This document shows positions 24,876 through 60,859 of a DNA stretch of 64,000 nt, in pieces (positions within the stretch are counted from its first letter, which is position 1; the number at the start of each line of letters is the position of its first letter). Source of the stretch: Halococcus saccharolyticus DSM 5350 (GTDB lineage: Archaea > Halobacteriota > Halobacteria > Halobacteriales > Halococcaceae); contig NZ_AOMD01000029.1 in assembly GCF_000336915.1 (NCBI RefSeq), positions 1-64,000 of the forward strand. The letters run 5' to 3'. A program made the translations under genes and the position numbers. The notes under the pieces were generated by a model that saw only the letters and a list, made by a program, of their open reading frames with translations, was not told where the DNA came from and did no database searches.

Positions 24876-27800
24876 TGCCGTTCCTGAGCAGAATCCGTCG
24901 AAGCAACAAGATGACGTTCGCCCGAGCAGCAACGCTTTCAGAAAGCACCGCAGAGCAGTTTCAGGGTCAAGCAGAGGGCTTTGACTCGCCGATCTACAAG
25001 CTCCAACCCTACCACGGTGAGAACGGCGTCGAGCAGGCCGTGAACCTGCTGGAAGGGCTATTCCATTATCAGACCAAGTTCGGGGTCATCAACAACAGCG
25101 AGACGCACGCTTTCGAGATGTGGTTTGACGGGGAACGCACCACCTACCACTACATTCCCGAGGACGTCGCTACCGGTGAGAACTTCCACGAGCAGATTAC
25201 CGAGGACTACCCTCACACGAACGTCCGCCAGTCTTTCGAGAGCGTCCCCGATGGGATGTTTCAGGCCGACCATGCGCTCGCCGGAGCCCGGTTCAACCTC
25301 ATGCGCGATCCCACCTACCCGATCAAGAGTATCGAAAACGGGGGGTTCGGGACTCGCAGCCGTGGGAACACCCGCGATCCCTACAAAGACTTGATCGGCC
25401 CGTTCACCCGAGACGACGATTCTCGGATCATGTTTCAACTCGTGTTCTATCCCGTGAAACGGGGCTGGCTACGTCGAAAGCAGGTCAACAGGCGGGCAGA
25501 AGCACTCCGAGGTGAACACGCCGAGTTACTCCACAGTCGAGACGCCACCAAACAGGAAAAAGAGGCTGCTCGGGTCATTGAGGAGCAGAAGAATCGCGAT
25601 ATATTCGGCGTCGAGATGCGGATGCTCGTTTCGGCACCGACGGAAGACCGTGCCACCAATCGGCTTGAGAGTCTTACCAGCCAGATCGAGAGCCGCTACC
25701 GGACGAACCTCAATCAGCGCTTCTACGCGAGTCCGGCGTCGAGCTACCTGCCGGGATGGAACGGTCGCGCTGTTCGCGACCTCGCGAAATCAGTCGTGAC
25801 CCGCGACCTCGATCGTAAATCCAGTATTGAATGTACGCCGGAGGAACTCGCCGGACTCGCTCACCTGCCGAGCGACGACGTGCAGAACCAGCATATCGAC
25901 TGGACCAACACGAGAGCCGGTGATCCCGTGCCGATCGGGACACCGCGCTTCGATTGGGAAGGGGAGAATCTCAATCCGATCGAGCTCACCCCTCACGAGA
26001 AACAAGACGTGCTGCTATCGAGCAGTTACCAGGACAGTCCTTACTGGTTAGGACGCGGTGCTCGGAAGGCGACAGAGGCCGGAATCCACCCGGAGCAGCT
26101 GAAACTGCATATGTTCGTCGGCGGGTCGACCGGGTTCGGGAAGACCACGCTCTTGAAGAACCTCTTTACGCAGATGATTCGGCGGGACTACGGAGCGCTG
26201 TTCTACGACCCGAAAGCCGACGACGCTCGCGATTTTGTCTCGATGGTGCCCGAGGACCGGCGAGACGATCTAGTTTACATTGAGATCGGCGGCAACCGCG
26301 AGCAGACGGTCGGGTTCAACTTCTTAGAGATACCAGGCAATCCCGAACCCGAATCTGCTCAGTTCGCCGAGTCTGTCGAAGCAATGGCGGACGATATAGA
26401 GGCGCTCGTCTCTCAGGCCGGTGGTTCAGACGAGTATTGGGGACCGCGTATGAGCCGTGTCGTTCGGAACATGGCCCGAGGGATGGCTAAGAGCGGTCGG
26501 AATCTGACGCTGCTGGATATGTATTATGCGTTGATCGACGAGCGCGGTCGCCAGGAGTACGCCGAGCACCTATCCGACGAGCGAATCGAGTGGATCGTCG
26601 ACTATGCGAGTCGGCAGCTAGCCGACATGGACGACAGCGACATTGAGCCGTTGATCGGTCGCCTACAGCAGTGGGTCGAGTCCGACCTCATGCGCTCGAT
26701 CGTCTCGCACCCGGAATCGACGTTTAGCGTCGAGGAGGCCGTCGCCGAGGGGAAGATCATCGTGGTGCGAGACATGACCTCGACGGGCGGAACAGCGGGG
26801 ACGCTCATCGCGACGGCGCTCATTCGGCGTGTGTGGTCGGCGGTGCAGAAACTACAGGACGACGAGGAGCGCGAAGACCCGCCGATGTTCTACTCGATCC
26901 TCGACGAGTTCGATAAGATCGTGAGCGGTCAGTCGTCGATCGCCGAGATCCTGTCGCTGGCACGGGCGTACAACCTGTCGATCATTCCTGCTTGCCAGGA
27001 CCTCACCAACCAGTTGCGCGGCGAGGAGGGGATTCAGGACGCGATTCTCGGCCAGTGCCAGACGTTCGCGAACTTCAATCCCCAGCGCCACAAAGAGGCA
27101 CAGACGATCGTTACCCGCCACAGCGATGAGGTCAGCGCGAGCGACCTCACGAACCTACCTCAGTACCAGTTCTATATGCGCAACCGCGACGATAACGGGG
27201 AGTTTACCTATTCGTACAAGGTCAACGGCTTCCCGCCGATCGACGAGGTACTCGACGAGCAGAGCGCCAGCGAGGAGGAGGTCGACGCCATGATCGAGCG
27301 GTCGCTCGAACAGTACGCGACCGAGCGAATGACCTCGCAGGAAATCCGCGACAGTTCGGAGTTCCGATCGGGTGGCGACGCCGATCCCGAGGCGATTGCC
27401 GCCGGGCTCGACAGCGGCAAGGACGAGGACACCCGCCAGCGTGACGAACTGTTCGCAGCGGTCGAGCGCGCGCAAGTGCGCAACGACATGATCGGCGAGT
27501 TTGTCCACCACGAGAAGGTGCGTGAAGCGTGGGCGACGATCGCCGAGGGCAATCTTGGGTATCTCAGCGAGACGGCGAATCAGATCGAGGAAGCCGACGA
27601 CGAGTATCTTGAACAGCAGCGCCAGAACAACGAGGTTCACGCTCGGCTCACCCCGGAGGGTCGCGAGGTCGCCGGGCTCGTACAGAATACCGGGTCGTCG
27701 GGATCGGGCGGTGGACTAGATCACCGCTGGGTACTCTCACAGTCGAAACTCGCCTACGAGCGGATGGGTTACGTCGTGTCGCTCCCGACCCAAGACGAGG

Positions 27801-29161
27801 AGGGCGAGCTCCCCGACGGCGTGGCGATCATGCCGGTCGACCCCACCGAGGCCGAGACAGTCGGGGAAATGCACGACCTCGAAAACCAGCTGAAAACCGA
27901 GTTCGGCGAAGTCTACGAGTATAGCGAGGGCCGGGACGTGTCGATCGAGGCGGAGACGTCGACGATCACGAAGCCGATGCAGACGATGACCAACCTTCGG
28001 AAAGCGATGGACGCCAAGATGAAGTGCGTCTTTACCACGAAGGATGGCAGCTACGATGAGGACAGCGAGGCCGCCGAGGAGATCGACCACGCAAGCCTGT
28101 TCGAGTATTGGGCGCGGCGCGGCGAGCGGATCATGTACGACGACGACCTGGACAACCTGATATTCGCTCGCGAGCAAGACGACGACGACAATCGCTGGTT
28201 CTACAACAAATCAAAGCAGTTCACGATCGAGGAAGATCCCGACCTCGTTGCCTTGCGACCCGCCAACGAAAGCGGATCGAACGAAACCGTGTGGCGTGAC
28301 GACGGCGACGAGATCGTACTCGCCGACGACCTCGGCGAGATACATGCTCGGTTCTCCGGCCCGAAGGACATCGCCGATCCACCACGCGAGGACTTTCCGG
28401 CGTACTACGAGTATGACAAAGAGGAGGAAGGCAACTTCCACGTCCAACTCGGCGGCGAATCCAAAGTCTATCAGACGAAAGACGAGCTACAGGCTGAGTG
28501 GACGCCCGTGAAAGAGCCCTTCGTGCCCGGTGTCGAGTTTACCGACGAGCACGGCGAGCCGAACACGCCCACCGAGGACGACTTTGAGTTCGTGATCTTC
28601 CCCGATGCGAACAACGACGAGTACGACGAGCCGATGATCTACGAACAGGGCGAGGTCACGCGCCCGCTGCTTCCCAAGGAGATGAATATGCCGTCGTCGG
28701 TCGTCGAGCGCGATCCCGACGAGGTTGATACCGAAAGCGAAGGTGAATCCGAGGGAGCGGGCGACGTCGAGAGCGAGGAGAGCCCGGCAGCCAAGGATTC
28801 CAACGATGGGACAACCGACACCACTGCCGAAGCAGAGGCAACTGCTTCCGAAGGTAGTCCGCCCGGAGATTCAACGACCAGTGAGGCAGAGGAAGGCGAG
28901 AAAGAAGGTGGAGACTCGGAGTATGTTAGTGAGGGTGTGAAAGCCGAAGATGGTGAGGATGTAGAAGATGCTTCCGATGCTACGGAAGGTGGAGATGGTG
29001 AAGATGGTGGTAACGCTGAGGATGGGACGTTAGATGAAGAATCTGCGAGCGGCGACGAGGAACAGACTACCTCGGAGGACGAATCGACTAACCAACAGGA
29101 CGAGGAAGAAGGGAACGAAAAGGAACAACAGAACCAGTCCGATCAGCTCCCCCGACTATAG
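24875..29161 (+). CDS. VirD4/TraG-like coupling ATPase
   Basis: 1428 residues, start overlapping the previous stop (TAATG). Walker A is GGSTGFGKTT with Lys423, followed by ALFYDPKADDARDFV. Walker B is FYSILDEFDKIV with Asp677-Glu678. The SLARAYNLSIIPACQDLTNQL segment is typical for TraG/TraD and archaeal coupling ATPases. No membrane spans were seen at the N-terminus, unlike classical VirD4. A long helical and acidic C-terminal part (about 830-1428) resembles the tail of the VirB4 partner. Expected role: bringing the transferred DNA strand to the channel. It ends the T4SS operon, just before the repeat-rich gene-free region. Confidence 0.85.
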   Translation: MPFLSRIRRSNKMTFARAATLSESTAEQFQGQAEGFDSPIYKLQPYHGENGVEQAVNLLEGLFHYQTKFGVINNSETHAFEMWFDGERTTYHYIPEDVATGENFHEQITEDYPHTNVRQSFESVPDGMFQADHALAGARFNLMRDPTYPIKSIENGGFGTRSRGNTRDPYKDLIGPFTRDDDSRIMFQLVFYPVKRGWLRRKQVNRRAEALRGEHAELLHSRDATKQEKEAARVIEEQKNRDIFGVEMRMLVSAPTEDRATNRLESLTSQIESRYRTNLNQRFYASPASSYLPGWNGRAVRDLAKSVVTRDLDRKSSIECTPEELAGLAHLPSDDVQNQHIDWTNTRAGDPVPIGTPRFDWEGENLNPIELTPHEKQDVLLSSSYQDSPYWLGRGARKATEAGIHPEQLKLHMFVGGSTGFGKTTLLKNLFTQMIRRDYGALFYDPKADDARDFVSMVPEDRRDDLVYIEIGGNREQTVGFNFLEIPGNPEPESAQFAESVEAMADDIEALVSQAGGSDEYWGPRMSRVVRNMARGMAKSGRNLTLLDMYYALIDERGRQEYAEHLSDERIEWIVDYASRQLADMDDSDIEPLIGRLQQWVESDLMRSIVSHPESTFSVEEAVAEGKIIVVRDMTSTGGTAGTLIATALIRRVWSAVQKLQDDEEREDPPMFYSILDEFDKIVSGQSSIAEILSLARAYNLSIIPACQDLTNQLRGEEGIQDAILGQCQTFANFNPQRHKEAQTIVTRHSDEVSASDLTNLPQYQFYMRNRDDNGEFTYSYKVNGFPPIDEVLDEQSASEEEVDAMIERSLEQYATERMTSQEIRDSSEFRSGGDADPEAIAAGLDSGKDEDTRQRDELFAAVERAQVRNDMIGEFVHHEKVREAWATIAEGNLGYLSETANQIEEADDEYLEQQRQNNEVHARLTPEGREVAGLVQNTGSSGSGGGLDHRWVLSQSKLAYERMGYVVSLPTQDEEGELPDGVAIMPVDPTEAETVGEMHDLENQLKTEFGEVYEYSEGRDVSIEAETSTITKPMQTMTNLRKAMDAKMKCVFTTKDGSYDEDSEAAEEIDHASLFEYWARRGERIMYDDDLDNLIFAREQDDDDNRWFYNKSKQFTIEEDPDLVALRPANESGSNETVWRDDGDEIVLADDLGEIHARFSGPKDIADPPREDFPAYYEYDKEEEGNFHVQLGGESKVYQTKDELQAEWTPVKEPFVPGVEFTDEHGEPNTPTEDDFEFVIFPDANNDEYDEPMIYEQGEVTRPLLPKEMNMPSSVVERDPDEVDTESEGESEGAGDVESEESPAAKDSNDGTTDTTAEAEATASEGSPPGDSTTSEAEEGEKEGGDSEYVSEGVKAEDGEDVEDASDATEGGDGEDGGNAEDGTLDEESASGDEEQTTSEDESTNQQDEEEGNEKEQQNQSDQLPRL

Positions 29162-50824: not shown

Positions 50825-50871
50825 CTCTTACCAAACATCCGAACGCGACAGGCCGTTAGATGTTTGGTAAG
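50825..50871. repeat. 47-bp dispersed palindrome, copy P5
   Basis: Perfect arms TCTTACCAAACA and TGTTTGGTAAGA. It marks the border between the wHTH operon and the leader-controlled genes, which converge here. Confidence 0.85.
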
Positions 50872-50962
50872 AACAGGCGACGGCGCTCGACGCTCGCGGT
50901 CGGCGAAACGGAGCAATCAGCCCAGTTCCGAAAACGGCAGCGAGTGGCGTCAACCCTGCTGC

Positions 50963-51169
50963 TTAGAGTGCGTCGATGCCTCCCTCACCGCCGCCGAAGT
51001 CCGCGCGCTCACTCCGACGCGGGTGGCCGAGCGCCCCGCACTCGGGACACTTGCGCCCGGCCTCGCTCTCGTTCCACTTGTTCGAGCACTCATTACACCG
51101 GGTTTCCGGGTCGCCACCGTCAGTTTCCGAGCAGTCCTGCGTGGTCGAAGCGTCAGTAGTGCGTTCCAT
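50963..51169 (-). CDS. small zinc-ribbon protein with shared leader
   Basis: 68 residues. CNECSNKW...RKCPECGALGHPRRSE forms a CxxC...CxxC zinc ribbon (residues about 25-43). Start fixed by the conserved leader that ends in ACACCT directly before the ATG. The last gene of the leftward group. Function unknown; small zinc ribbons of this kind often bind nucleic acid or act as adaptors. Confidence 0.75.
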   Translation of the reverse strand: MERTTDASTTQDCSETDGGDPETRCNECSNKWNESEAGRKCPECGALGHPRRSERADFGGGEGGIDAL

Positions 51170-51226
51170 AGGTGTTCACCGGGGCGTTCCCCCGTATCAC
51201 CAATATACGGTCGGATAAACTTAAAC
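51170..51226 (-). promoter_or_regulatory. shared leader L1, type A
   Basis: Read on the minus strand: TATA-like GTTTAAG box, GTCGG-type spacer, CCGTATATTGG, then a short GC hairpin and CGGTGAACACCT abutting the ATG of the 51169 gene. Confidence 0.8.
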
Positions 51227-51275
51227 CCTCCGGTATCGACTAACAGGGAGGGGGACAAAACCGCCGTGTCAGCCA

Positions 51276-51644
51276 TTAGTTCACCAATTCAGCGGGGGTG
51301 AGATGTAGGTGATCGCTGTCAGGCAACTCCTCCCAAAACTCAAACTCCTCGCCGGTCGTCGGGTCAGTGATCGGGTAGCCCCGCCATGCCGTCATGCCGC
51401 CGTCTACCTCATCAACGACAGTGCGTTCGCCCTCAAAACCGACGCGAAGGAGTTTGTCGTCGTCGTTATCGTAGTGAAGCACCACCGCGCCGCCGGGATC
51501 AACGACGCCCTCGGGGGCCTCCTGATAGAGGCGCGTCTCACCGTTTTCATCGACCAGCGACCACACCGACTCGTCGGGGTCGAGCAGGTCGGTGTCAATC
51601 TGGAAGCGATCAACAGCGTCCGTGCCGTCAATATCTCGTACCAT
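51276..51644 (-). CDS. unknown acidic beta-rich protein with shared leader
   Basis: 122 residues. DPDESVWSLVDENGETRLYQEAPEGVVDPGGAVVLHYDNDDDKLLRVGFEGERTVVDEVDGGMTAWRGYPI suggests an all-beta fold. No cysteines or spans. The start is set by the shared leader. The C-terminal FEFWEELPDSDHLHLTPAELVN is probably helical. No family recognised. Size and acidity would fit a DNA-mimic or adaptor protein, but that is speculation. Confidence 0.7.
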   Translation of the reverse strand: MVRDIDGTDAVDRFQIDTDLLDPDESVWSLVDENGETRLYQEAPEGVVDPGGAVVLHYDNDDDKLLRVGFEGERTVVDEVDGGMTAWRGYPITDPTTGEEFEFWEELPDSDHLHLTPAELVN

Positions 51645-51700
51645 AGGTGTTCTCCGGGGCGCTCCCCCGTATTACCAATATACGGTCGTAAACGGATAAA
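51645..51700 (-). promoter_or_regulatory. shared leader L2, type A
   Basis: Minus-strand TTTATCCG box, CCGTATATTGG, GGGGGAGCGCCCC hairpin, GGAGAACACCT and ATG of the 51644 gene. Confidence 0.8.
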
Positions 51701-51808
51701 GGTTCCGCTCCTCCCTTGCTCAGACAAGACTCATACCGCCGCTACCGCGAGAAATCAGCAATATGAGCAGATCGAACGACCGGTTCGCGAACCGAAGACG
51801 ATGGGGAT

Positions 51809-51994
51809 TCAGAGAACCCCTTGAACCAGCGCCCACACCGACGCGAGCGCGGTGATTGTCGTTAGTACCATTTTGACGGCTTTCAGCACCGTCATGCTGG
51901 TTTTTAGCCGTTCCTTCAGCGAGGGGCTTTCTTCATTCTCAGCGCCGTAACCGTGGCGGTCCTCCGGTGCTGAGTTACCGTATGTAAGTGCCAT
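51809..51994 (-). CDS. small single-span membrane protein with shared leader
   Basis: 61 residues, a charged N-terminal half followed by one membrane helix (KMVLTTITALASVWALVQGVL at the very C-terminus). No partner is obvious. Tail-anchored proteins this small could act at the inner membrane, for example in surface or entry exclusion. Confidence 0.65.
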   Translation of the reverse strand: MALTYGNSAPEDRHGYGAENEESPSLKERLKTSMTVLKAVKMVLTTITALASVWALVQGVL

Positions 51995-52040
51995 AGGTGT
52001 CCACCTCTACATTACCAATATACGGTCGAATTCACTTAAA
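51995..52040 (-). promoter_or_regulatory. shared leader L3, type A without hairpin
   Basis: TTTAAG box and CCGTATATTGG present. The GC hairpin is missing and the ribosome-binding end is GGTGGACACCT. Confidence 0.75.
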
Positions 52041-52079
52041 ACTGTCGCCTCTGGATTTGATTATCGGAGTAGTACGGCC

Positions 52080-52589
52080 TCAATCGCAGCGGGGACAGCC
52101 GTTCATTTTCAGGCCCGAGCTCAGTGATTCCATCCCGCAGCCCTCACACCGGTAGAACGTCTCTCCGGTGGGTTCGCCGTTGATTATCTCATCGTGGGGA
52201 CCGGAAATCTCAGTCGTCGGGGTCGAGTCCTCGATTTGAGCGGGATCGAGGTAGTTCTCGACGGTCGCGATGTCGATCGCCCACTCGTCGCCGTCGAGAG
52301 CGGCTACCACGTCGTTTTTGAAGTCCTGATAGTGGTCGAACGCCACCGTGTCGGCGTAGTGATCGGCGAGCAGTGCGAGCGCCAACTGTGCGGGACCGCT
52401 GCCGCCGTAGCCCCATTCGAGGCCGGTCGGCGAGTGGTTTGCGAGGTCGGTGCGGGGATCGAGTTGATGCCCGTCCGGGCCGACCACGCGGTTGCGCTCG
52501 GTCGAGCGTCGGTATCCGGTGTAGGCGGCGTCTCGATCGTCAGTTTTGAGCTGTGCGTCGTCGTGGGACCGCTTTTCCGTCGTTGCCAT
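52080..52589 (-). CDS. DUF6166-like protein with C-terminal zinc ribbon
   Basis: 169 residues. VVGPDGHQLDPRTDLANHSPTGLEWGYGGSGPAQLALALLADH (36-78), then FDHYQDFKNDVVAAL, is the DUF6166 core seen in plasmids and phages. A linker leads to a C-terminal zinc ribbon FYRCEGCGMESLSSGLKMNGCPRCD. Function unknown. Its presence under a shared leader ties a known mobile-element family to the regulon. Confidence 0.8.
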   Translation of the reverse strand: MATTEKRSHDDAQLKTDDRDAAYTGYRRSTERNRVVGPDGHQLDPRTDLANHSPTGLEWGYGGSGPAQLALALLADHYADTVAFDHYQDFKNDVVAALDGDEWAIDIATVENYLDPAQIEDSTPTTEISGPHDEIINGEPTGETFYRCEGCGMESLSSGLKMNGCPRCD

Positions 52590-52650
52590 AGGTGTTCACC
52601 GGGGGGCGCTCCCCCTATACTACCAATATACGGTCGGATACGGATAAACC
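52590..52650 (-). promoter_or_regulatory. shared leader L4, type A
   Basis: TTTATCCG box, CCGTATATTGG, GGGGGAGCGCCCCCC hairpin and GGTGAACACCT before the 52589 gene. It is nearly identical to L11 on the other strand. Confidence 0.8.
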
Positions 52651-52736
52651 CTTTGATCGAGTCCGGTGCTAATCACGCGACAGTAGCCGCAAGAGCAGCG
52701 AAAACGCCCGATCAGCCCACTGATTTAGTCGGTGTT

Positions 52737-53021
52737 TCATCCGGTGAGATCGCGCTCGGCAGTTACGAATCCGTCGGCGTTCGGACCTTCAACAATCGAC
52801 ATTCCGAACGTATCGGTGAGGAATCGGCAGGCAATCTCGCCGCCGCCCATGTTCACCACCACGTACTCGTACCCCTCAGCGGCGAACCGATCGAGCAGCG
52901 CGCTCATGACGGCAGTACCCATTCCCGTCCGCCGTTCGGCCTTGATGACCCGAAAATGGGTGATATTGACGCCGTTCTCGCCCAGCGGCTCGTAATCGTA
53001 TTCGATTTTCGAGCGCGTCAT
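52737..53021 (-). CDS. GNAT-family acetyltransferase-like protein
   Basis: 94 residues. THFRVIKAERRTGMGTAVMSALLDRFAAEGYEYVVVNMGGGEIACRFLTDTFGMSI carries the acetyl-CoA loop RRTGMGTAV and the following helix and strand of a GNAT fold. It is short and lacks the first strands, so it is minimal. No leader of its own: the start codon overlaps the stop of the preceding zinc-protein frame (TGATG), implying coupled translation from L5. Confidence 0.75.
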   Translation of the reverse strand: MTRSKIEYDYEPLGENGVNITHFRVIKAERRTGMGTAVMSALLDRFAAEGYEYVVVNMGGGEIACRFLTDTFGMSIVEGPNADGFVTAERDLTG

Positions 53022-53449
53022 CAGTACCCGTGATAGTGGGCCGAGTTCCGGTTAGACGCCACCGCCGAGCGCCAGTCATCCTCGGAGCGGTGGGCTTCGT
53101 AGTCGATCAGCCGGTAGATCGCCGTCCCAGCCCATTCACACTCGGGACAGAACGCCGAGGCGGTCGCGCCGTTCCCGGTCTAGGTGTAGTCTCGAAGTTC
53201 GACGCGCGAGTGCCCGCAGACCGGGCAACCGTCGCCGATTTGAGTGTATTGCGGCCCCACGTCGCCGGTCACGCTATCAGCGTGAATCCCGTGGTTCTCG
53301 CTCAGGATTCTCCCGACCTGTCGCCCGAGGTCTTGTAGGATGGTTTCGCGCTCTTGCTCGCCATCCGGCAGAGCAGCGCCGGAGACGCGGATCACTAGCT
53401 CGTCGGTCTGTTCCTCGCTGTCGTGGGTGGTGGCTTCTTCGTGTTCCAT
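53021..53449 (-). pseudogene. zinc-ribbon protein gene split by an in-frame TAG
   Basis: The frame runs from ATG 53449 to TGA 53021-53023 with one TAG at 53180-53182. Before the stop: a 89-residue part ending CPVCGHSRVELRDYT. After it, in the same frame: SAFCPECEWAGTAIYRLIDYE and SAHYHGY, which supply the second Cys pair of the zinc ribbon. The two halves therefore belong to one protein of 142 residues. The final TGA overlaps the ATG of the acetyltransferase gene, so the distal half is still in its operon setting. Either a recent nonsense mutation or a decoded TAG. Confidence 0.75.
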
Positions 53450-53507
53450 AGGTGTTCTCCGGGGCGTTCCCCCGTACTACCAATATACGGTCGGAAAAAC
53501 TTAAACC
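53450..53507 (-). promoter_or_regulatory. shared leader L5, type A
   Basis: TTTAAG box, CCGTATATTGG, short GC hairpin and GGAGAACACCT before the ATG of the TAG-split zinc-ribbon gene at 53449. Confidence 0.8.
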
Positions 53508-53546
53508 CTACGATCCACGGGCGAGAAGTAGCCGCCGCTCAGTTGT

Positions 53547-53870
53547 TCATTCGTCGGCAGAGAACCGGACAGCCACGCCCGGATCATTCAGTTTTCCGCC
53601 GTCGCGGGCGACAGGCGGATCGAGAGAGCGGGCATCGAGAGTCGTGTCGTGATCGGCGAGTGCCGCGTCGAACGTCGCCGAGTCGTCCCGGTCGGGGAGC
53701 ACCGCCCACCCGATCACGCGAGCGTCCTCGTTGAGTTTCACGCCCGAAGATTCGACACACTCGGCGGCGTTGAGTGCGTTCCGCAGGCTCACCATCCGTT
53801 TCACGCGGTCGGCGAACTGTTCCGCTGGCATGGCCGGGGGCTTCCCCGGCGGGCGATCGGTCGGTTCCAT
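53547..53870 (-). CDS. unknown small protein with type B leader
   Basis: 107 residues, FADRVKRMVSLRNALNAAECVESSGVKLNEDARVIGWAVLPDRDDSATFDAALADHDTTLDARSL. One cysteine. Helix-strand alternation, Pro-rich N-terminus (RPPGKPPAMP). No family recognised. Divergent from the SWIM-protein gene at 54028, with the two type B leaders back to back. Confidence 0.65.
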   Translation of the reverse strand: MEPTDRPPGKPPAMPAEQFADRVKRMVSLRNALNAAECVESSGVKLNEDARVIGWAVLPDRDDSATFDAALADHDTTLDARSLDPPVARDGGKLNDPGVAVRFSADE

Positions 53871-53932
53871 AGGTGTTCACCGGGAGCGGGATCGCCCCCG
53901 ACATATCTACATTGTAGATATAGACACTTGAA
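53871..53932 (-). promoter_or_regulatory. shared leader L6, type B
   Basis: Instead of CCGTATATTGG it carries the palindrome TATCTACATTGTAGATA (about 53904-53920), followed by a GC hairpin region and CGGTGAACACCT. Confidence 0.8.
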
Positions 53933-53969
53933 CCCGTCGATTCGCCGGAAGGCGGTCGAACAACCCAAC

Positions 53970-54027
53970 CCTTAAGTGCATGACTCTACAATGTAGATAT
54001 ACGAGGGAACCCCCTCGGAGAACACCT
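53970..54027 (+). promoter_or_regulatory. shared leader L7, type B
   Basis: CCCTTAAG box, CTCTACAATGTAGATATAC, then GAGGGAACCCCCTC hairpin and GGAGAACACCT before ATG 54028. It faces L6 so that one control region drives both directions. Confidence 0.8.
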
Positions 54028-54447
54028 ATGGCAATCGCACAATCCGCAACCCTCGACGCCGGAGCCGACGAGAACAGCCCCGACATGGACGACCTCGACG
54101 CCGCGAAGCGCCGAGGCGTTCGTGCCCGCCGCGAGAGCATGATCGTAGTGCCCCAAACCGACGACGAGGGCGTGTGCATCGGCATCTACGACGTGCATAG
54201 CGAATCGGGCGAGCACTACATGGTCGTGCTCGATCAGCCCGAGTGTTGCGACTGTCCCGATACGGAGTATAACGGCGCGGAGAACTGCAAGCACCGCCGT
54301 CGGGTGGCCCTCGAAATCACCGAGGAAGGATGCCCGGCCCCCGGTCAGGAGATCGGCGACTACGCCGATACGCTCGACAGTCACCGCGAGGCGCTGCGCG
54401 AAGACCTCGAAACGGTCGCGGGGATGCTCGACCCGCTCGCCGACTAA
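54028..54447 (+). CDS. SWIM zinc-finger protein 1
   Basis: 139 residues from ATG 54028, fixed by leader L7. The SWIM motif is Cys74-x-Cys76-x10-Cys87-x-His89, in ECCDCPDTEYNGAENCKHR after the two-strand segment GEHYMVVLDQ. SWIM domains bind nucleic acid or protein and are common in mobile-element proteins. The helical C-terminal tail YADTLDSHREALREDLETVAGMLD could mediate dimerisation. A second SWIM protein sits at 55857. Confidence 0.82.
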   Translation: MAIAQSATLDAGADENSPDMDDLDAAKRRGVRARRESMIVVPQTDDEGVCIGIYDVHSESGEHYMVVLDQPECCDCPDTEYNGAENCKHRRRVALEITEEGCPAPGQEIGDYADTLDSHREALREDLETVAGMLDPLAD

Positions 54448-54631
54448 GCGCCGCACGGTCGCCAACACCAGTCGCACCGTTCGTTCGCGAGCTCACAGCT
54501 GCTTTTCGCGCCGACTAGATCGGGAGATCGAGCCGCCAATCGGAGCAACCCCCGGAGGGCAAGGCAAACGCTTTTCAACTTGTCCCTGTCTACAACCGAG
54601 TGCAGAGGCCCCACCTCTGAACTCCATCCAT

Positions 54632-54652
54632 AGGTGTTCACCGGGGGGCCTT
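54632..54652 (-). promoter_or_regulatory. orphan partial leader L8
   Basis: CCCCCCGGTGAACACCT directly before an ATG at 54631 (minus), but no CCGTATATTGG and only a 13-codon frame behind it. The rest of 54448-54763 shows no gene with support. This is probably the remains of a deleted leader-gene unit. Confidence 0.5.
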
Positions 54653-54763
54653 TTGCATTCACTATCCTCCTAAGCGACAGCTATCGGCCCACAGCGGCGC
54701 GACGATCCACCGAATCAGTCAACCGCCGTTCGCCGCGATCCCTAACCCTCGCATACCCGACAC

Positions 54764-54810
54764 TCTTACCAAACATCTAATCGTGGCCGGTGTCCGGTTG
54801 TTTGGTAAGA
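54764..54810. repeat. 47-bp dispersed palindrome, copy P6
   Basis: Arms TCTTACCAAACA and TTGTTTGGTAAGA. It lies inside the leader-controlled region, between the orphan leader and L9. Confidence 0.85.
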
Positions 54811-54904
54811 ACGGCCGACCCTCGCGATCGGAGCCGCTAAAACCCGAGAAAACAGGAACAGCAGACGTTTTCTGGCGGTGTCGCACCGAACCCGAAGCAA
54901 AGCT

Positions 54905-54961
54905 CTTATCCATATCCGACCGTATATTGGTAGTACGGGGAGCGATCCCCGGTGAACACCT
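54905..54961 (+). promoter_or_regulatory. shared leader L9, type A
   Basis: CTTATCCATATCC box, CCGTATATTGG, GGGGAGCGATCCCC hairpin and GGTGAACACCT before ATG 54962. Confidence 0.8.
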
Positions 54962-55228
54962 ATGGGACGAAAGGAACGACACGACCTCAGTCCGCTTCGA
55001 CCGATCAGTATCGTCTCGGTAACATACGGCGCGAGTCTCGCGTGGGCCGTCGGAACGCTGGCATACTGTGTCCTTTTCGCGCTGTTCGTCGCCGCGAACG
55101 GCGGAGACGTCCCGCAGTGGACGTTCCGAGGCATGGGAATCGCGTGTCTCAGCGGCCTCACGAGTGCAATCCTGTTCGACCTCTACAAGCGCGAGGGCGA
55201 GAGTCGCCAGACCGACGGCAACGAATAG
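54962..55228 (+). CDS. small two-span membrane protein with shared leader
   Basis: 88 residues: SIVSVTYGASLAWAVGTLAYCVLFALFVAANGG and a second span TFRGMGIACLSGLTSAILFDLY with a charged tail (KREGESRQTDGNE). No family recognised. Two membrane proteins in the regulon (this and 51809) suggest some of its activity is at the cell membrane. Confidence 0.7.
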   Translation: MGRKERHDLSPLRPISIVSVTYGASLAWAVGTLAYCVLFALFVAANGGDVPQWTFRGMGIACLSGLTSAILFDLYKREGESRQTDGNE

Positions 55229-55339
55229 ACCAACCACCGACAACCGGCGTCGGTGAAACACTTTCCTCGCAGTCTAATTATCGCATCTCAGGGCCTATAT
55301 CGACAGATATAGCCAGATGTGAGCGAGCCAAAGCAAAGC

Positions 55340-55396
55340 CTTTATCCGCATTCGACCGTATATTGGTGATGCAGGGAAGCGTCCCGGAGAACACCT
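55340..55396 (+). promoter_or_regulatory. shared leader L10, type A
   Basis: TTTATCCG box, CCGTATATTGG, weak hairpin AGGGAAGCGTCCC, GGAGAACACCT before ATG 55397. Confidence 0.8.
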
Positions 55397-55489
55397 ATGG
55401 AACGGAACCAGCCGAACGCGGACGACACCGAAGAACAGCACGGAGTTACGGAGATCTCGGGATACGCGGCCTGCGTGGAGGCCCGTTGA
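55397..55489 (+). CDS. 30-residue leader-driven gene
   Basis: MERNQPNADDTEEQHGVTEI and ten more residues ending VEAR, then TGA at 55487-55489. It overlaps the next ATG (TGATG). The complete shared leader sits in front, so it is very probably translated. It may be a small protein or serve to couple translation of the zinc-ribbon gene behind it. Confidence 0.55.
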   Translation: MERNQPNADDTEEQHGVTEISGYAACVEAR

Positions 55490-55674
55490 TGACGGCGTTT
55501 TGCGTCGGTTGCGGCAAGGATATGTGGGAATACAGCGATGAGGAACAGGAGGAAGGTTGGTGTATCTCCTGCGCGCCGGAACTGTACGAGCTCGGTTCAA
55601 AATTCGGCCCTTCGGTTGACCCTGTATCCGGCGTTGAGGATACCCGGAAGGTAGAAGCGCGCGCCGATAAGTGA
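55489..55674 (+). CDS. small zinc-ribbon protein
   Basis: 61 residues. MTAFCVGCGKDMWEYSDEEQEEGWCISCAPELYELGSKFG, a CxxC...CxxC ribbon (Cys5, Cys8, Cys25, Cys28). The start overlaps the stop of the 30-residue frame. Unknown function. Confidence 0.7.
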   Translation: MTAFCVGCGKDMWEYSDEEQEEGWCISCAPELYELGSKFGPSVDPVSGVEDTRKVEARADK

Positions 55675-55797
55675 CCGCGAGGAGTGTTGTATTTCGCCGA
55701 GCAGCAACGTCCTGAATGATAGAGGTAGGTTCAGCCGGGTCCTGATCGACCGCCTGCGGTTGCTATCGCGTGATTTGCACCGAGCTCGATCAAAGGG

Positions 55798-55856
55798 TTT
55801 ATCCGTATCCGACCGTATATTGGTAGTATAGGGGGAGCGCCCCCCGGTGAACACCT
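55798..55856 (+). promoter_or_regulatory. shared leader L11, type A (reference copy)
   Basis: TTTATCCG (55799), GACCGTATATTGG (55811-55823), GGGGGAGCGCCCCCC hairpin, GGTGAACACC self-complementary, ATG 55857. The distance from TTTATCC to the GGTAGTAT step is about 25 bases, so the transcript probably starts just before the hairpin. Confidence 0.85.
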
Positions 55857-56402
55857 ATGGCACGAACCCAAGCGGCGAACGGCGACGAATCGGGCGAGAA
55901 CGAGCATTTCGACGCGATCGACAAGGAGGAGAAGCGTATCCACCGCGCGCTCGATAGTTTCATGCACGTCGAGGCGACGAGCACGCCGGGCGAGCACCGC
56001 GTTCACAGCGGTTCGGGGAGTACGTACACGGTGAACCTGCTGGAAGGGTCGTGTACGTGCCCGGATGCCGAGCGGTCGGCCATGTGCAAGCACATGGTTC
56101 GAGTCGTCGCCGTCACCGGTGAGACGCCCCTCAGCGCGGGCGAGAACACCGTTCCCGTGACGCTCACCGCCGACGCGTTCGACGAGGTGGCGAGCGCGGT
56201 GAAGGTGCTCGATGACGCCGAGGAGATCGTGAGCGCGTTCGACGGCGCGGGCGACGAACGCACCGGTGCGCTCACCGAGCAGCAGTGTGCCGACGCTGCC
56301 GACGCGGTGAAAGCCGCGCTGGGTATGAGCGGCCCGATGGGGGCCGACGACCACGACGCCGCAGTGAACGCCCGCGAGACGCTCGAAACCGCCTCCGAGT
56401 AG
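55857..56402 (+). CDS. SWIM zinc-finger protein 2
   Basis: 181 residues. The SWIM motif is Cys66-x-Cys68-x8-Cys77-x-His79 (GSCTCPDAERSAMCKHM) after GSTYTVNLLEG. The C-terminal part is Ala-rich and helical. A homologue in plan of the 54028 protein but with diverged sequence outside the motif. Start set by leader L11. Probably nucleic-acid binding. Confidence 0.82.
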   Translation: MARTQAANGDESGENEHFDAIDKEEKRIHRALDSFMHVEATSTPGEHRVHSGSGSTYTVNLLEGSCTCPDAERSAMCKHMVRVVAVTGETPLSAGENTVPVTLTADAFDEVASAVKVLDDAEEIVSAFDGAGDERTGALTEQQCADAADAVKAALGMSGPMGADDHDAAVNARETLETASE

Positions 56403-56528
56403 GTCGGCCCCGATCGCGCGCGTCGAGGGCGAGGGACTCTTTTCGACCGAAACTCAGTTGGGTCAAACCCGGCTACACGGGCCTGTTGGACCCTCTATCG
56501 GGTGGTTAACCCAATCCCAGGACGAAGG

Positions 56529-56575
56529 CTTTATCCGTACCCGACCGTATATTGGTAATATCGAGGTGAACACCT
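56529..56575 (+). promoter_or_regulatory. shared leader L12, type A without hairpin
   Basis: TTTATCCG box, CCGTATATTGG, then directly GAGGTGAACACCT before ATG 56576. Like L3 it lacks the GC hairpin. Confidence 0.8.
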
Positions 56576-57046
56576 ATGGAAACCAATTCAAACCTCGTGA
56601 CGACGAGCGGGGCCGTGCAAGCATGGCGCGACGACCGCGAGAACATGACCGACGCGGAATTGTCGGGGCTCACCCGCGAGGGCGTGATCCTGCGCGACCT
56701 CAATGCAGGCGTGTTCCTCCGGGTGATCGACGCGCCCGCCGAGAGCGGTCCCGAGAGCGAGCGATCGGTGACGTTCGAGGACGACAACGGCAAGCACGCC
56801 ACGTACCAGCTAGATCACCTTCGGTCGTATCTGACGCGAGGGACGGTCGAGCCGGTCCCGCGCGAGGTGATCGAGAACGCCGAGCAGATCGTTCACGACG
56901 TCGCGCGCCACGAGCTCACTCAACTCGACACTCTTTCGCGGGACTCGGCGTACAACGTGACCGAGCACACTGAAACATACGCCGACGCCCGGAACGCGCT
57001 TTTGCTCGACGGGATCGACGGAATCGAGGAGGACGCCGACGCATGA
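56576..57046 (+). CDS. unknown protein, first gene of a leader-driven operon
   Basis: 156 residues. An N-terminal beta domain (GVILRDLNAGVFLRVIDAPAESGPESERSVTFEDDNGKHATYQLDHLRSYLTRG) and a helical C-terminus. No cysteines. Family not recognised. Its end overlaps the DUF6884-like gene (ATGA), so 56576-58088 is one operon under L12. Confidence 0.65.
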   Translation: METNSNLVTTSGAVQAWRDDRENMTDAELSGLTREGVILRDLNAGVFLRVIDAPAESGPESERSVTFEDDNGKHATYQLDHLRSYLTRGTVEPVPREVIENAEQIVHDVARHELTQLDTLSRDSAYNVTEHTETYADARNALLLDGIDGIEEDADA

Positions 57047-57717
57047 GCCAGACCGAACGGACGGAAACGACGGTGCTCGTCGGGTGTGGAGCCGAAAAAC
57101 AGAACTCGCCTACTCCCGCCCGCGACCTCTATACATCGTCGTACTTTCAGAAAAAGCGCGAATACGCCGAGACAGTCGGGGACTCGTGGGCGATCCTGTC
57201 GGCGCTGTATGGCTCTCTCGCCCCTCAGTCGCGCACCCGGCCCTACGACGTAACGATCAGCGACTATCCGCTCGACGTCGATGAGCGGGATCGAGCGGAG
57301 TACGCGACCGTCGAGGAGTGGGCCGAGTCGATTCTTGAGGGCGTCGAGAACCGCGTTCACAACCTCGATCGGTGGGACGACCGCGATCCACTCGGTCGGA
57401 TCGTGATTCTCGCGGGCCAGAAATACGTCGAACCGCTCCGCGAGGGACTCGACGCGCTCGCCGACGAGCACGGCTTTGAGGTAGTGTATCCGTTCGACGA
57501 CACCAGCGGGATCGGCGATCAGATCGGGTGGCTCACCGAGGGGATCGAGGCCGCCGAGGACCGGGACACCGGGGTTTCCGCTGGTTCCGAAGCCGATACC
57601 GGCGACGTCGAAGCCGACCGAGGAGCCATACCCAACGAGGACGCAAACGCGACCGAGAACAGCGGCCCAGCGCAGGCCGACCTCGGCGGATTCGCTAATC
57701 GGGACTCGGGGGCTTGA
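57043..57717 (+). CDS. DUF6884-like protein
   Basis: 224 residues. LVGCGAEKQNSPTPARDLYTSSYFQKKREYAETVGDSWAILSALYGSLAPQSRTRPYD is the DUF6884 signature (VGCG...K, A-x-DLY-x-S-x-F, ILSA-x-YG, PYD). Such proteins occur in phages and plasmids and resemble the nucleotide/tRNA-modification YaaA-like group. The enzymatic role is unproven. The C-terminal 60 residues are a disordered acidic tail. Confidence 0.78.
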   Translation: MSQTERTETTVLVGCGAEKQNSPTPARDLYTSSYFQKKREYAETVGDSWAILSALYGSLAPQSRTRPYDVTISDYPLDVDERDRAEYATVEEWAESILEGVENRVHNLDRWDDRDPLGRIVILAGQKYVEPLREGLDALADEHGFEVVYPFDDTSGIGDQIGWLTEGIEAAEDRDTGVSAGSEADTGDVEADRGAIPNEDANATENSGPAQADLGGFANRDSGA

Positions 57718-57719
57718 AT

Positions 57720-58088
57720 ATGGTCGCTCAGGCTACTCTACCGGAGACCGAGAGGGTGATCGGGTCGTATAGTTGCGGCCACGGACGGACCCACCAAGTC
57801 CCGAGCGCCGACGTTCAGATTTACCGGGCAGGCGGGGCCGGATTCATGGCCGGGTGTGAGTGCGGCAGCGGCCCGATCGACCCCGAGACCGCGGGGGTGT
57901 TTCTCGGCGACCACATCGTGCTACTCGGCGGGCAAAGCTTCGATACCCGATTGTGGCTCGCACTCGACGAACGCGCCGAGTGGTTCCCCGGTCGGGACCC
58001 GGATCTTGAACCAGTCAGCGGCGGCGAGACTCCCCGAGAGCGCCGGGACGCCCGGCGGTCAGAATTACATAGCCAGATCGACGAGTAG
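57720..58088 (+). CDS. unknown Cys/Gly-rich protein, third gene of the operon
   Basis: 122 residues from ATG 57720, two bases after the preceding stop (TTG 57714 is an alternative). IGSYSCGHGRTHQVPSADVQIYRAGGAGFMAGCECGSGPIDPETAGVFL has a CxH and a CxC that could form a zinc site. Then LWLALDERAEWFPGRDPDLE. No family recognised. Confidence 0.65.
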   Translation: MVAQATLPETERVIGSYSCGHGRTHQVPSADVQIYRAGGAGFMAGCECGSGPIDPETAGVFLGDHIVLLGGQSFDTRLWLALDERAEWFPGRDPDLEPVSGGETPRERRDARRSELHSQIDE

Positions 58089-58104
58089 CTGGTTCAGACC
58101 AACG

Positions 58105-58161
58105 TTTTAAGTTTATTCGACCGTATATTGGTGATACGGGGAAGCGCCCCGGAGAACACCT
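58105..58161 (+). promoter_or_regulatory. shared leader L13, type A
   Basis: TTTTAAGTTTATTCG box, CCGTATATTGG, GGGGAAGCGCCCC hairpin, GGAGAACACCT before ATG 58162. Confidence 0.8.
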
Positions 58162-58497
58162 ATGGCACGAAACCAGTCGAACGCGAACGACCGAGACGCA
58201 CAGACCGAGGCGATTCTTGACGAGATAGACGCGCAGACGCCGGATGAGTCGATCCACCGGGCATACGCCGAGTCGCAACTCGGGCGGGTGCAGGTACTCG
58301 ACGTCAACGACATAGCCGACGAGGAAGGGCTTGACCGCGAGGAACAGCCCGCAGAGGTCGCAGAAGCCGTGATCGACGCCCAGTCGGACTACTTCGGAAC
58401 GCTCGCGGAAACCAACGAACTTCGGGACCAGTTGGAACAGTTCGGGATTGAACTCGACGAGGACGCACCCGAAACCGAATACGCTTGGTGGCAGTAG
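58162..58497 (+). CDS. unknown acidic helical protein with shared leader
   Basis: 111 residues, strongly acidic: EAILDEIDAQTPDESIHRAYAESQLGRVQVLDVNDIADEEGLDREEQPAEVAEAVIDAQSDYFGTLAETNELRDQLEQFGIELDEDAPETEYAWWQ. Mostly helical, ends in WWQ. No family recognised. Net charge and size are compatible with a DNA-mimic type inhibitor, which is only a hypothesis. Confidence 0.68.
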   Translation: MARNQSNANDRDAQTEAILDEIDAQTPDESIHRAYAESQLGRVQVLDVNDIADEEGLDREEQPAEVAEAVIDAQSDYFGTLAETNELRDQLEQFGIELDEDAPETEYAWWQ

Positions 58498-58607
58498 GCG
58501 CGTCACGCCCGTAGCCGCTTTTTTGCCGAGCTCAGACTCCGAGAGACGCCGGTATCAGGCTTTCAGACCGCCGACTAAGCCACCGATCGCCGACCGGGAT
58601 CAAAGCC

Positions 58608-58663
58608 TTTATCCGTATCCGACCGTAAATTGGTGATGCGGGGGAGCGCCCCGGTGAACACCT
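58608..58663 (+). promoter_or_regulatory. shared leader L14, type A
   Basis: TTTATCCG box, CCGTAAATTGG (one change), GGGGGAGCGCCCC hairpin, GGTGAACACCT before ATG 58664. Confidence 0.8.
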
Positions 58664-59587
58664 ATGGCAACGACGCAAACCACCACGGACGCGGCGGATT
58701 TCGGGGAAAAGGACACGCGCAAAGACGATATGCGGGAAGCGACCGAGGAGTTCGTCGAGGACCTCATCGACGAGGCCAGTTCCGCGAGCGAGAGCGAGAC
58801 GCTGAAAGAGTTTCTCGACGCGCAGAGCGCGTTTCACAATTACAGCTACCGGAACACGCTGCTCATCAAAATGCAGTGCCCGCACGCGACCCGAGTCGCC
58901 GGGTATCGGACGTGGCAAGACGACTTTGATCGGCAGGTTCAGTCGGGCGAGGAGGCGATTTATATCCTGTATCCGCACACTGCCGAGCATACGTGCCCGG
59001 AGTGCGGGAACACGCCGGACTATCACGATAGTATCGGGTGCGAGTACGACGACACCGACCCCGAGGAGTGGGATAGCGGGATCGTGACGTGGCGGACGGG
59101 TTCGGTGTTCGACGTCTCACAGACCGAGGGCGAGCCGCTGCCGGAGCTTCCGACCGACGCCGAGGGCGAGGCTGACGACCTACTCGACGCCATGCTCACG
59201 GCGGCAGACGCCCTCGTGAGTAGTGTCGAGATCGTCGACGCCGACGAGTGGACGCGCGGCAGCACGAAAGGCGTGTGCGACACCGCCGAGCAGACGATCG
59301 AGGTCAAAGACCGCGCGAACGCCGCCGTCGCCGGGACGCTCGCCCACGAGCTCGCCCACGCGCTGCTACATCAGGGCAACGAGACGGACGACCGGAAAGA
59401 GCGAGAGCTAGAAGCCGAGGCAGTCGCCTACGTGGTCGGTCGCCACTTTGGGCTTGACGTCAGCGGGTCGGGCTTCTATCTCGCGGCGTGGGAGAACGAC
59501 GACGCCGAGGAGATTCGGGGCCACCTCAGTCGGATCGCCACGACGTCGAGCACGATCATCGACGCGATCGCCGCCGAGATCGAGTAA
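58664..59587 (+). CDS. ArdC-like antirestriction protein with zinc metallopeptidase domain
   Basis: 307 residues. The N-terminal ArdC-type ssDNA-binding-like region covers residues about 20-100 (LKEFLDAQSAFHNYSYRNTLLIKMQCPHATRVAGYRTWQDDF). A zinc insert follows with Cys111, Cys114 and Cys126. The metallopeptidase core has HELAH at 228-232 within GTLAHELAHALLHQG and the downstream ligand helix ELEAEAVAYVVGRHFGL, as in ImmA/IrrE and ArdC proteins. ArdC proteins protect incoming conjugative DNA from restriction. Fits an establishment role for the regulon. The start is fixed by leader L14. Confidence 0.85.
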   Translation: MATTQTTTDAADFGEKDTRKDDMREATEEFVEDLIDEASSASESETLKEFLDAQSAFHNYSYRNTLLIKMQCPHATRVAGYRTWQDDFDRQVQSGEEAIYILYPHTAEHTCPECGNTPDYHDSIGCEYDDTDPEEWDSGIVTWRTGSVFDVSQTEGEPLPELPTDAEGEADDLLDAMLTAADALVSSVEIVDADEWTRGSTKGVCDTAEQTIEVKDRANAAVAGTLAHELAHALLHQGNETDDRKERELEAEAVAYVVGRHFGLDVSGSGFYLAAWENDDAEEIRGHLSRIATTSSTIIDAIAAEIE

Positions 59588-59631
59588 GCGATCGCGGGAC
59601 CGGTTTTCGCGCTGAGTCGAGGACGAAACCC

Positions 59632-59688
59632 TTTTCCGTATAACTCTACAATGTAGATACACGAGGGAAGCCCCCTCGGAGAACACCT
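59632..59688 (+). promoter_or_regulatory. shared leader L15, type B
   Basis: CCCTTTTCCGTATAA box, CTCTACAATGTAGATAC, GAGGGAAGCCCCCTC hairpin, GGAGAACACCT before ATG 59689. Its closest relative is L7. Confidence 0.8.
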
Positions 59689-60213
59689 ATGGAACGCGAA
59701 GAACGGCACCGTGGCAAGCGCGGTACGAACGTCGAGAACAGCCCCGAGAGAATCACCGCTGCCGATCGCCCCGGCCACGGGCGCGTTGGCGGGATCGACG
59801 ACCCGGTAGCACGGTCGGAGTACGGCGACGATCCCGAGGCGGTTCGCGAGGCCCAGCGGGACGCAGCGGGCGACCTCGAGGACGCTCACCAGCACGCGAC
59901 CGTCTACCAGTTGGCCGATGGGGAGAGCGAGCGACCCCGCGAGATCCGCCACGATCCGAACGGTGCCAGCCTGTCGATCGGTGACTTGATCGAGCACTAC
60001 GAGCTCGCCGGTGAGGAGGATGTCGTCGACCTGTCGGACCTGTGGGAGCGGTGGAATCGCGGCAGCGGCCAGGAATCGCAGGCGTTCGTCGAGGCCGAAA
60101 CGCGGAGCCTGTCGGTCGGCGACATCGTGGTGCTCGACGGAGACGCCTACCGGTGCGATCGGATCGGATGGACGGCGATCGAGCTTTGTGAGGACGGTCA
60201 GACGGCGGAGTAG
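59689..60213 (+). CDS. unknown protein with YodL-like C-terminal domain, type B leader
   Basis: 174 residues. A disordered basic-acidic N-terminus, a middle helix (SIGDLIEHYELAGEEDVVDLSDLWERW) and a C-terminal strand unit ETRSLSVGDIVVLDGDAYRCDRIGWTAIEL. The SLSVGD...Y.C...GW pattern resembles YodL-like domains that often accompany ArdC or antirestriction proteins. It follows the ArdC-like gene, consistent with that pairing. Confidence 0.68.
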   Translation: MEREERHRGKRGTNVENSPERITAADRPGHGRVGGIDDPVARSEYGDDPEAVREAQRDAAGDLEDAHQHATVYQLADGESERPREIRHDPNGASLSIGDLIEHYELAGEEDVVDLSDLWERWNRGSGQESQAFVEAETRSLSVGDIVVLDGDAYRCDRIGWTAIELCEDGQTAE

Positions 60214-60331
60214 CCAGCAGTCCCTCCCGCGCCGTGGTGGTCGACGTTCGGACGATCGCAGACGTCGACGCTGTTCGACTCAGCGCGCGGGCGTCCCGGT
60301 TCGCGGCTTCCCCGCCAGAAAGCCGCTCAAT

Positions 60332-60346
60332 CAGGAGTGAACACCT
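60332..60346 (+). promoter_or_regulatory. partial leader L16
   Basis: Only the ribosome-binding end AGGAGTGAACACCT is kept before ATG 60347. The promoter core is absent or diverged in 60214-60331. Confidence 0.55.
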
Positions 60347-60859
60347 ATGGAAGCCCAGGAGACTCAGCCCAAACCCATGTCAGACGACGAGGTTTCAATC
60401 AACGAGATACAGACAGTGACCGTTCGCGAGCGCCAATCCCAAAGCGGGCGCTTGATACTCGTCTCTCTCACTCCGGCGATCCGAGCCGCCGGGCTTGAGG
60501 CAGGCGGATCGTTCCGGTTCCAACCGGGGGCCGTCGACGAGATCGGGATGCTTCCGGCGCTCGGGTTCGGCCCCGACGAGGACATTTCGAGCGGGCCGCT
60601 CACGCGCAAGATCCTCGAGGAAGGAGCCGGCGGCCAGACGCTTCGGTTGCATATCCCCGAGGAGGCGCTTGAGGCGATCCCAGGGTTCCCCGAGATCGAC
60701 GCGATCGACTGGGACGATCCGCCCGAGCTCACCGTATTCGCGGGTGATCGGATGCTCGCGTTCGAGCTCGCCGAGAGCCGATCGGTGACCATCAATCGCG
60801 ACGTCGACGACGGAGGTGGTGACGGAGATACCGACGAGTCCGAGCAGGTGGACGGATGA
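60347..60859 (+). CDS. unknown protein, first of a six-gene overlapping operon
   Basis: 170 residues. INEIQTVTVRERQSQSGRLILVSLTPAIRAAGLEAGGSFRFQPG looks like a SpoVT/AbrB-like swapped-hairpin segment (RLILVSLTPAIRAAGLEAGG), followed by TLRLHIPEEALEAIPGF. If so it could be a DNA-binding regulator of the group. Acidic Gly/Asp tail. The stop overlaps the next start (ATGA). Confidence 0.65.
   Translation: MEAQETQPKPMSDDEVSINEIQTVTVRERQSQSGRLILVSLTPAIRAAGLEAGGSFRFQPGAVDEIGMLPALGFGPDEDISSGPLTRKILEEGAGGQTLRLHIPEEALEAIPGFPEIDAIDWDDPPELTVFAGDRMLAFELAESRSVTINRDVDDGGGDGDTDESEQVDG

Follow-up and report, generated by a model that had tools for sequence, protein, structure and literature searches.

A 64,000-nucleotide stretch of Halococcus saccharolyticus DSM 5350, here called the window (bases 1-64000 of the 147,226-bp contig NZ_AOMD01000029.1, hereafter C29), carries an array in which one promoter-leader has been placed ahead of many small genes of mostly different families. 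Arrays of the same layout in other letters stand on further haloarchaeal plasmids and contigs, each beside a gene of one two-halved AbrB-like family. Co-regulation of the array genes is well supported. We consider it somewhat more likely than not that the array is an element-specific repressor regulon of a haloarchaeal conjugative plasmid, kept low in a cell where the plasmid resides and released when it enters a new one; its establishment or anti-defence role and its timing on entry we infer.

Extent and confinement of the leader array

We counted the leaders by the start box at their end. The window has 19 matches to GGWGAACACCT at no more than one mismatch, where shuffling leads one to expect 1.8 and none of 100 shuffles reached 19. 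Of these copies, 16 lie at 51170-60346, on both strands, every one directly against an ATG. This count bears out an earlier note on this DNA, which had described sixteen leader copies ahead of small genes on both strands. The same note ended the array at 60349, too early by four leaders that follow past the window on C29 (ATG at 64550, 65522, 66388 and 67394) and bring the array to 20 copies over 51.2-67.4 kb.

The more frequent operator of these leaders, op1, has a single further match in the 3.45-Mb genome when two mismatches are allowed, and with up to one mismatch it exceeds two copies only in the source genome among 392 genomes of the order. In IMG/VR and GTDB genomes the exact operator gave scattered single matches only; 257 Gb of other genomes yielded 62 of these, roughly the number that chance alone would produce. 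The start box alone matched 117 IMG/VR stretches, once each among the matches listed. The whole array found no match in PLSDB by megablast, and Rfam returned nothing at the gathering threshold in the array extension and three plasmids and nothing convincing in the window array. In the genomes searched, then, the array is confined to one element and op1 occurs elsewhere only sporadically; the leader is not spread there through chromosomes ahead of housekeeping genes, a distribution that would have refuted the proposal of the earlier note.

Anatomy of the leader

Each complete leader on C29 runs in the order TATA-like box, operator, usually a GC hairpin, and start box against the ATG, the TATA-like box starting 13-16 nucleotides upstream of the operator. 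The operator is op1, ACCGTATATTGGT, in 11 of the 16 window leaders (one of them, at 58664, with a mismatch) and op2, TCTACAATGTAGA, in three; over the whole of C29, op1 occurs in 15 leaders and op2 in 3. The leaders at 54631(-) and 60347(+) keep the end portion only and have no operator. Beyond the window, the 67394 leader has op1 and box without a hairpin. The first codons are alike in many array genes (MARNQSNAND, MERNQPNADD, MATTQTT), and the leaders at 52589 and 55857 are near-identical, with similarity that extends upstream of the promoter. The earlier note had read this anatomy correctly in nearly all details, including the two truncated copies; it needs amending in that 51994 reads GGTGGACACCT, that the hairpin, present in 12 of the 14 operator-bearing window leaders, is lacking at 51994 and 56576, that 54631 opens a 13-codon open reading frame (ORF) only, and that 55397 opens one of 30 codons running into the start of the following gene.

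To place the operator relative to transcription we used the rule from halovirus HF2, whose class I intergenic repeat has TATA at -26 from the transcription start (PMC8707807). The predicted start is then a purine directly after op1, and the operator therefore spans about -13 to -1. Given this predicted position, a protein bound at the operator would block archaeal initiation.

The hairpin stem is paired in 60 of 60 cells across 15 C29 leaders, with GAGG/CCTC and GGGA/TCCC replacing GGGG/CCCC; shuffled arms reached full pairing in 0.3% of trials, in a test whose arms were delimited by hand and whose related leader copies are not independent. Stems of the other arrays vary likewise (AGGAA/TTCCT versus GGGAG/CTCCC in genome G202). 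Since the stem letters vary while pairing is kept, the stem-loop is probably conserved at the RNA level, close to the 5' end of the messenger. We also asked whether the start box is simply a Shine-Dalgarno site; its GGTG/GGAG fits C29 but is absent from the boxes of most other arrays, and this candidate was rejected. The box differs by plasmid and is found again ahead of the regulator gene, a putative control element where translation starts.

Arrays with the same layout on other plasmids

Through a homolog of the 67394 protein we found an array on Halococcus dombrowskii plasmid unnamed3 (NZ_CP095008.1), with twelve operator-bearing leaders that read TTTAAG, then CTCCAAGCATGGGT or GGGGCATTATTAAGG, usually a GGGC hairpin, and CGAACCCGACT against ATGAC. 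The backbone of this plasmid is largely orthologous to C29 (60-86% for a 1,424-amino-acid protein at 76.9 kb of C29, whose H. dombrowskii ortholog is annotated as N-6 DNA methylase, and its neighbours). Further arrays were reached with a profile of the 67394 protein and this H. dombrowskii homolog, then with a profile of the 60347-type domain, which occurs in 18 of the 392 genomes. Together they amount to eight loci including C29 (seven other haloarchaeal plasmids or contigs) and to seven letter-families, with the operators TATGCCTATATAGTATGCATA in G061, CCCATACAATATATGGG in G202 and G385, TGACTATTAGTCA in G277, TACATCTTATACTAAGATGTA in G167, where the hairpin is absent, and ACTTCTATAATATAGAAGT in G205.

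The layout is common to them: TATA, operator at the predicted start, usually a GC hairpin, start box against the ATG, and shared first codons. From operator start to ATG the distance is 32-50 nucleotides in all seven letter-families, the TATA-like box mostly starts 9-16 nucleotides before the operator, and six operators are inverted repeats. An automatic finder recovered at least four starts sharing a seed in 6 of the 8 loci; G202 reaches three, and the G385 array was recognised through the G202 operator. Among 50 control windows one reached at least four, a repeat block that fired also on reversed sequence. The contig with the G061 array also carries, at about 64-68 kb (L286, G061 C15), a block of repeats CCTACGTAGG and TAGGGTCGAA that is perhaps CRISPR-like; a check of the joined motif gave nothing.

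We next compared leaders with the genes behind them. When the 48 array proteins were compared across plasmids, 30 pairs proved similar, with identities of up to 83%. Leader similarity is 0.56 for homologous genes on different plasmids, 0.53 for unrelated genes and 0.76-0.84 within one plasmid, as scored by a gapped aligner with free ends that gives 0.34 for shuffled sequences, so that the contrast counts and not the absolute values. In the most similar case (L229 15998 and L263 16647, proteins 83% identical) operators, boxes and first codons all differ. Leaders thus track the plasmid although the cargo is partly shared, and the earlier note was right that the leader rather than the gene has been copied, one leader standing ahead of different genes. 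Genes that move between plasmids would end up behind the leader of the plasmid they join.

A candidate regulator linked to the arrays

Beside all eight arrays lies a gene of one two-halved AbrB-like family, and in 7 of the 8 loci it carries the local operator or start box. The operator, without hairpin, precedes the regulator genes at 67394, L229 19932, G277 4747 and G205 9471; the start box only is found at 60347, G061 2956, G202 2085 and G385 15209. MraZ is an AbrB-type repressor that acts on its own promoter, and the predicted regulator fold is best matched by MraZ: for an AlphaFold2 model with a predicted local distance difference test (pLDDT) score of 85.7, the five best rows of a second-look alignment (VIA-align) are all MraZ, at Z 8.7 to 6.9 with the next row at 5.0, values among which a Z near 8 can be background. 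The linked two-halved protein is likely the array regulator, a candidate operator binder and repressor. Other searches gave little more. The 60347 protein has no Pfam match, a MazE_antitoxin match on the 67394 protein is below cut-off, a profile search of the PDB matched only the helix-hairpin-helix tail that the 67394 protein shares with its H. dombrowskii homologs, a first model of the regulator (pLDDT 61) gave no fold match, and the 67394 profile found no relative in IMG/VR.

Besides the possible background in the Z scores, several points weigh against this assignment and the repressor regulon built on it. Foldseek with the pLDDT 85.7 model returned no significant match (E above 0.001). The linkage to all eight arrays is partly built in, the arrays having mostly been found with the regulator family as bait, and in one genus the regulator domain has distant homologs on the chromosome, at loci without an array. 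The G167 regulator gene has neither operator nor box, and the box common to the G202 and G385 regulator genes is short (ATCCATGGCA). C29 and H. dombrowskii each have two classes of operator, which would call for two proteins or one of broad specificity, and most of the 48 array proteins belong to no assignable family.

Related sites occur outside the arrays. Genome G053 holds a regulator homolog and one operator-like site without an array; the lone operator-like ACCGGATATTGGT stands there at L279 8616 and also, in G045 (L281, about 9480-10060), near a SWIM-type homolog of the 54028 gene, again with no array. Genes of the 60347 type share a non-coding upstream stretch with a hairpin GCTGTTCGACTCAGC, unlike the array leaders (window about 60230-60346, L265, L266, L267).

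Cargo genes and the surrounding element

The genes behind the leaders are mostly unrelated, as the earlier note had it, except that 54028 and 55857 are both SWIM-type. The families it had named, ArdC, DUF6166 and DUF6884, are all above the Pfam cut-off, with ArdcN at 58664-59587 behind its leader. The 48 array proteins include phrog_17897 eight times, DUF7389 three times, ArdC and SWIM twice each, and DUF6166, DUF6884 and TFIIB once each. ArdC-like genes occur in two arrays, and ArdC is the sole direct pointer to anti-restriction among the cargo. The TFIIB gene (L268 567-1442) lies in the G277 array behind the local leader, and expression of that array may be driven in part by a TFB of the plasmid.

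With VirB4-like and VirD4-like genes that score above the Pfam cut-off or close to it, C29 has the marks of a conjugative element, and transfer genes are present on four array-bearing relatives as well. C29 also has an Orc1/Cdc6-like gene (37.0-38.3 kb), a ParB-like gene adjoining the array (68.9 kb), a ParA-like gene (70.4 kb) and a TFB-like protein (118.7 kb), all but the ParB-like gene named from sequence.

ArdC was tried as the linked partner of the array. On other plasmids, six loci surrounding transfer genes or homologs of ArdC (L223-L228) have no such array, and ArdC is therefore not the linked partner. Three of these loci, L225 (pHMA155), L227 and L228, carry a repeated leader of another kind ahead of ArdC, DUF6166, DUF6610 and DUF6735 genes (e.g. 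L228 at 111, 2849, 5522, 6565, 14537, 14971 and 16009), on plasmids of three haloarchaeal families. It consists of a T-rich box and then a hairpin with a variable, apparently covarying stem and a loop conserved around GAAGGGGTGM, and has no Rfam match.

Positions of the window features are given in Table 1. Two tiny ORFs opened by leaders, 55397-55489 (30 codons) and 65522-65568 on the contig (14 codons), end at or just before the next gene start, as if these leaders had been placed upstream of pre-existing genes. Inverted repeats CTTACCAAACATC...TGTTTGGTAAGA, with arms 20-odd bases apart, lie at the array edge (50828-50873) and inside the array (54766-54810).

Table 1. Leaders, candidate regulators and transfer genes on C29 (window positions unless stated).
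Feature	Position	Strand	Operator	Hairpin	Gene or note
Leader	51167..51226	-	op1	yes	50963-51169 (zinc-ribbon-like)
Leader	51642..51701	-	op1	yes	51276-51644
Leader	51992..52042	-	op1	no	51809-51994
Leader	52587..52649	-	op1	yes	52080-52589 (DUF6166)
Leader	53447..53506	-	op1	yes	53180-53449
Leader	53868..53932	-	op2	longer	53547-53870, divergent from 54028
Leader	53970..54030	+	op2	yes	54028-54447 (SWIM-type; homologs in four other arrays)
Orphan leader end	54629..54665	-	none		13-codon ORF
Leader	54904..54964	+	op1	yes	54962-55228 (membrane protein)
Leader	55340..55399	+	op1	yes, A-T inner pair	30-codon ORF overlapping start of gene 55489-55674
Leader	55796..55859	+	op1	yes	55857-56402 (SWIM)
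Leader	56528..56578	+	op1	no	operon 56576-57046, 57043-57717 (DUF6884), 57720-58088
Leader	58105..58164	+	op1	yes	58162-58497
Leader	58606..58666	+	op1, one mismatch	yes	58664-59587 (ArdC-like)
Leader	59630..59691	+	op2	yes	59689-60213
Start box only	60330..60349	+			ahead of candidate regulator gene
Candidate regulator	60347..60859	+			two AbrB-like halves, predicted MraZ-like fold
Larger regulator paralog	67394-68530 (C29, beyond window)				helix-hairpin-helix tail
VirB4-like transfer ATPase	21222-24875	+
VirD4-like transfer ATPase	24875-29161	+

Proposed mechanism and alternatives

In the repressor regulon that we favour, each unit would be a whole cassette of B recognition element (BRE) and TATA, operator, usually stem-loop, start box and first codons. 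The AbrB/MraZ-like protein (60347-60859, and the larger 67394-68530) would bind the operator and keep expression of the units low for as long as the plasmid stays in its cell. On entry into a cell without the regulator all units would fire together until it accumulates, that is by zygotic induction, and the burst of ArdC-like anti-restriction protein and other small proteins would aid establishment or counter host defence. An operator and regulator of its own for each plasmid would produce specificity groups. Going one step further, the arrays may form an undescribed regulon class, in which a cassette uniform within each plasmid is replaced wholesale between plasmids together with a fast-diverging MraZ-like repressor, the specificity groups resemble phage immunity groups and the shared cargo is an archaeal anti-defence catalogue; we put forward this wider claim tentatively, at a little under an even chance.

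The main competitor, clearly less probable but deserving serious attention, is that the leader is an activated or constitutive promoter like the HF2 repeats, in which the motif serves as initiator or is recognised by an activator or special TFB, with coordinated expression in the resident state and no repressor. HF2 class I repeats do pair TATA with a conserved motif at the start site and lose their activity when that motif is mutated, and the TFIIB gene in the G277 array and the TFB-like protein of C29 would suit it. Operators that are wholly different by plasmid, several of them inverted repeats, are better suited to a diverging dimeric protein, and the linked regulator-family gene also argues for repression. 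The regulon could instead serve resident functions (stress response, copy control or donor mating-state switching) rather than entry. That most cargo has no known function and that the array adjoins ParA/ParB genes would agree with this, but two arrays have ArdC-like genes, and the cargo pool varies by plasmid as do the establishment genes on pLS20-family plasmids, which makes this explanation unlikely.

Two further readings have very little probability. One is that the leaders resemble each other merely through gene conversion or duplication in the recent past and that the likeness has little bearing on function. Copied first codons and the resemblance of the 52589 and 55857 leaders upstream of the promoter speak for it; against it, operator and box are invariant while the flanks vary, the stem varies with its pairing kept to a degree that few shuffles reach, and one geometry is found again and again in seven letter-families that are unrelated. 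Single-stranded-DNA promoters of a plasmid leading region (Frpo/ssi type) are just as improbable: a conjugative element, an anti-restriction gene and a repeated hairpin recall them, but the array genes lie on both strands where the islands described in PMC11541004 keep to the transferred strand, the hairpin follows TATA and operator without re-forming a promoter, and some copies and the whole G167 array have none.

If the repressor regulon is confirmed, archaeal plasmids have an establishment programme of their own, and the leader becomes a search key that flags every gene behind it as a possible counter-defence gene. That the geometry is conserved and the letters are private to each plasmid leads to a testable claim on plasmid specificity groups (cross-repression, exclusion), and archaea would have a family of MraZ-like regulators.

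Comparison with known systems

The earlier note had likened the array to bacterial leading regions and knew of no described archaeal example. Leading-region islands, which lie on the transferred strand, resemble it in that repeated Frpo promoters switch on anti-defence genes of conjugative plasmids (PMC11541004). C29 has no single-strand promoter structure, its hairpin standing between operator and start box with TATA outside, and with an array on both strands the analogy fits poorly. An archaeal precedent does exist: the intergenic repeats of halovirus HF2 are repeated archaeal promoters, active in a reporter assay (PMC8707807), and the broad idea is therefore not new. They too belong to a haloarchaeal element and combine TATA with a conserved motif over the start site. 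The HF2 start-site motif, CGTCTNNTAGAG, shares no letters with the array operators; HF2 is a lytic virus whose repeats sit mostly at a distance from the start codon and drive long viral transcripts, and the six printed repeats have no hairpin plus start box against an ATG.

MraZ, which gave the best structural matches of the regulator model, has two AbrB-like halves, a fold that the C29 protein is predicted to resemble, but identity over aligned residues is 5-7%, and the C29 gene lies on an archaeal plasmid. In the open-licence papers searched we found no description of one geometry common to arrays of different letters, of an MraZ-like gene linked to them or of leaders replaced wholesale; repeated archaeal promoters as such were already known.

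The better bacterial analogue is the ardC establishment regulon of Bacillus p576, which is under an autoregulated repressor and in whose relatives only ardC and reg are conserved among the establishment genes in all members (PMC8708921). Like the C29 array, the p576/pLS20 clade II system (EGeRS2, Reg repressor; PMC8708921) lies on a conjugative plasmid and has ardC, together with small genes that vary by plasmid, in several units behind common operators; its regulator is encoded by the plasmid within the regulon, a place that the C29 candidate may likewise have. The p576 regulator is a ribbon-helix-helix protein, whereas the C29 candidate is two-halved and AbrB/MraZ-like, and the C29 array is therefore not a member of the p576 family. 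The haloarchaeal arrays differ further in their archaeal TATA promoters, in a leader that adds stem-loop, start box and copied first codons, in reaching up to 20 copies, and in letters that are wholly different between homologous plasmids.

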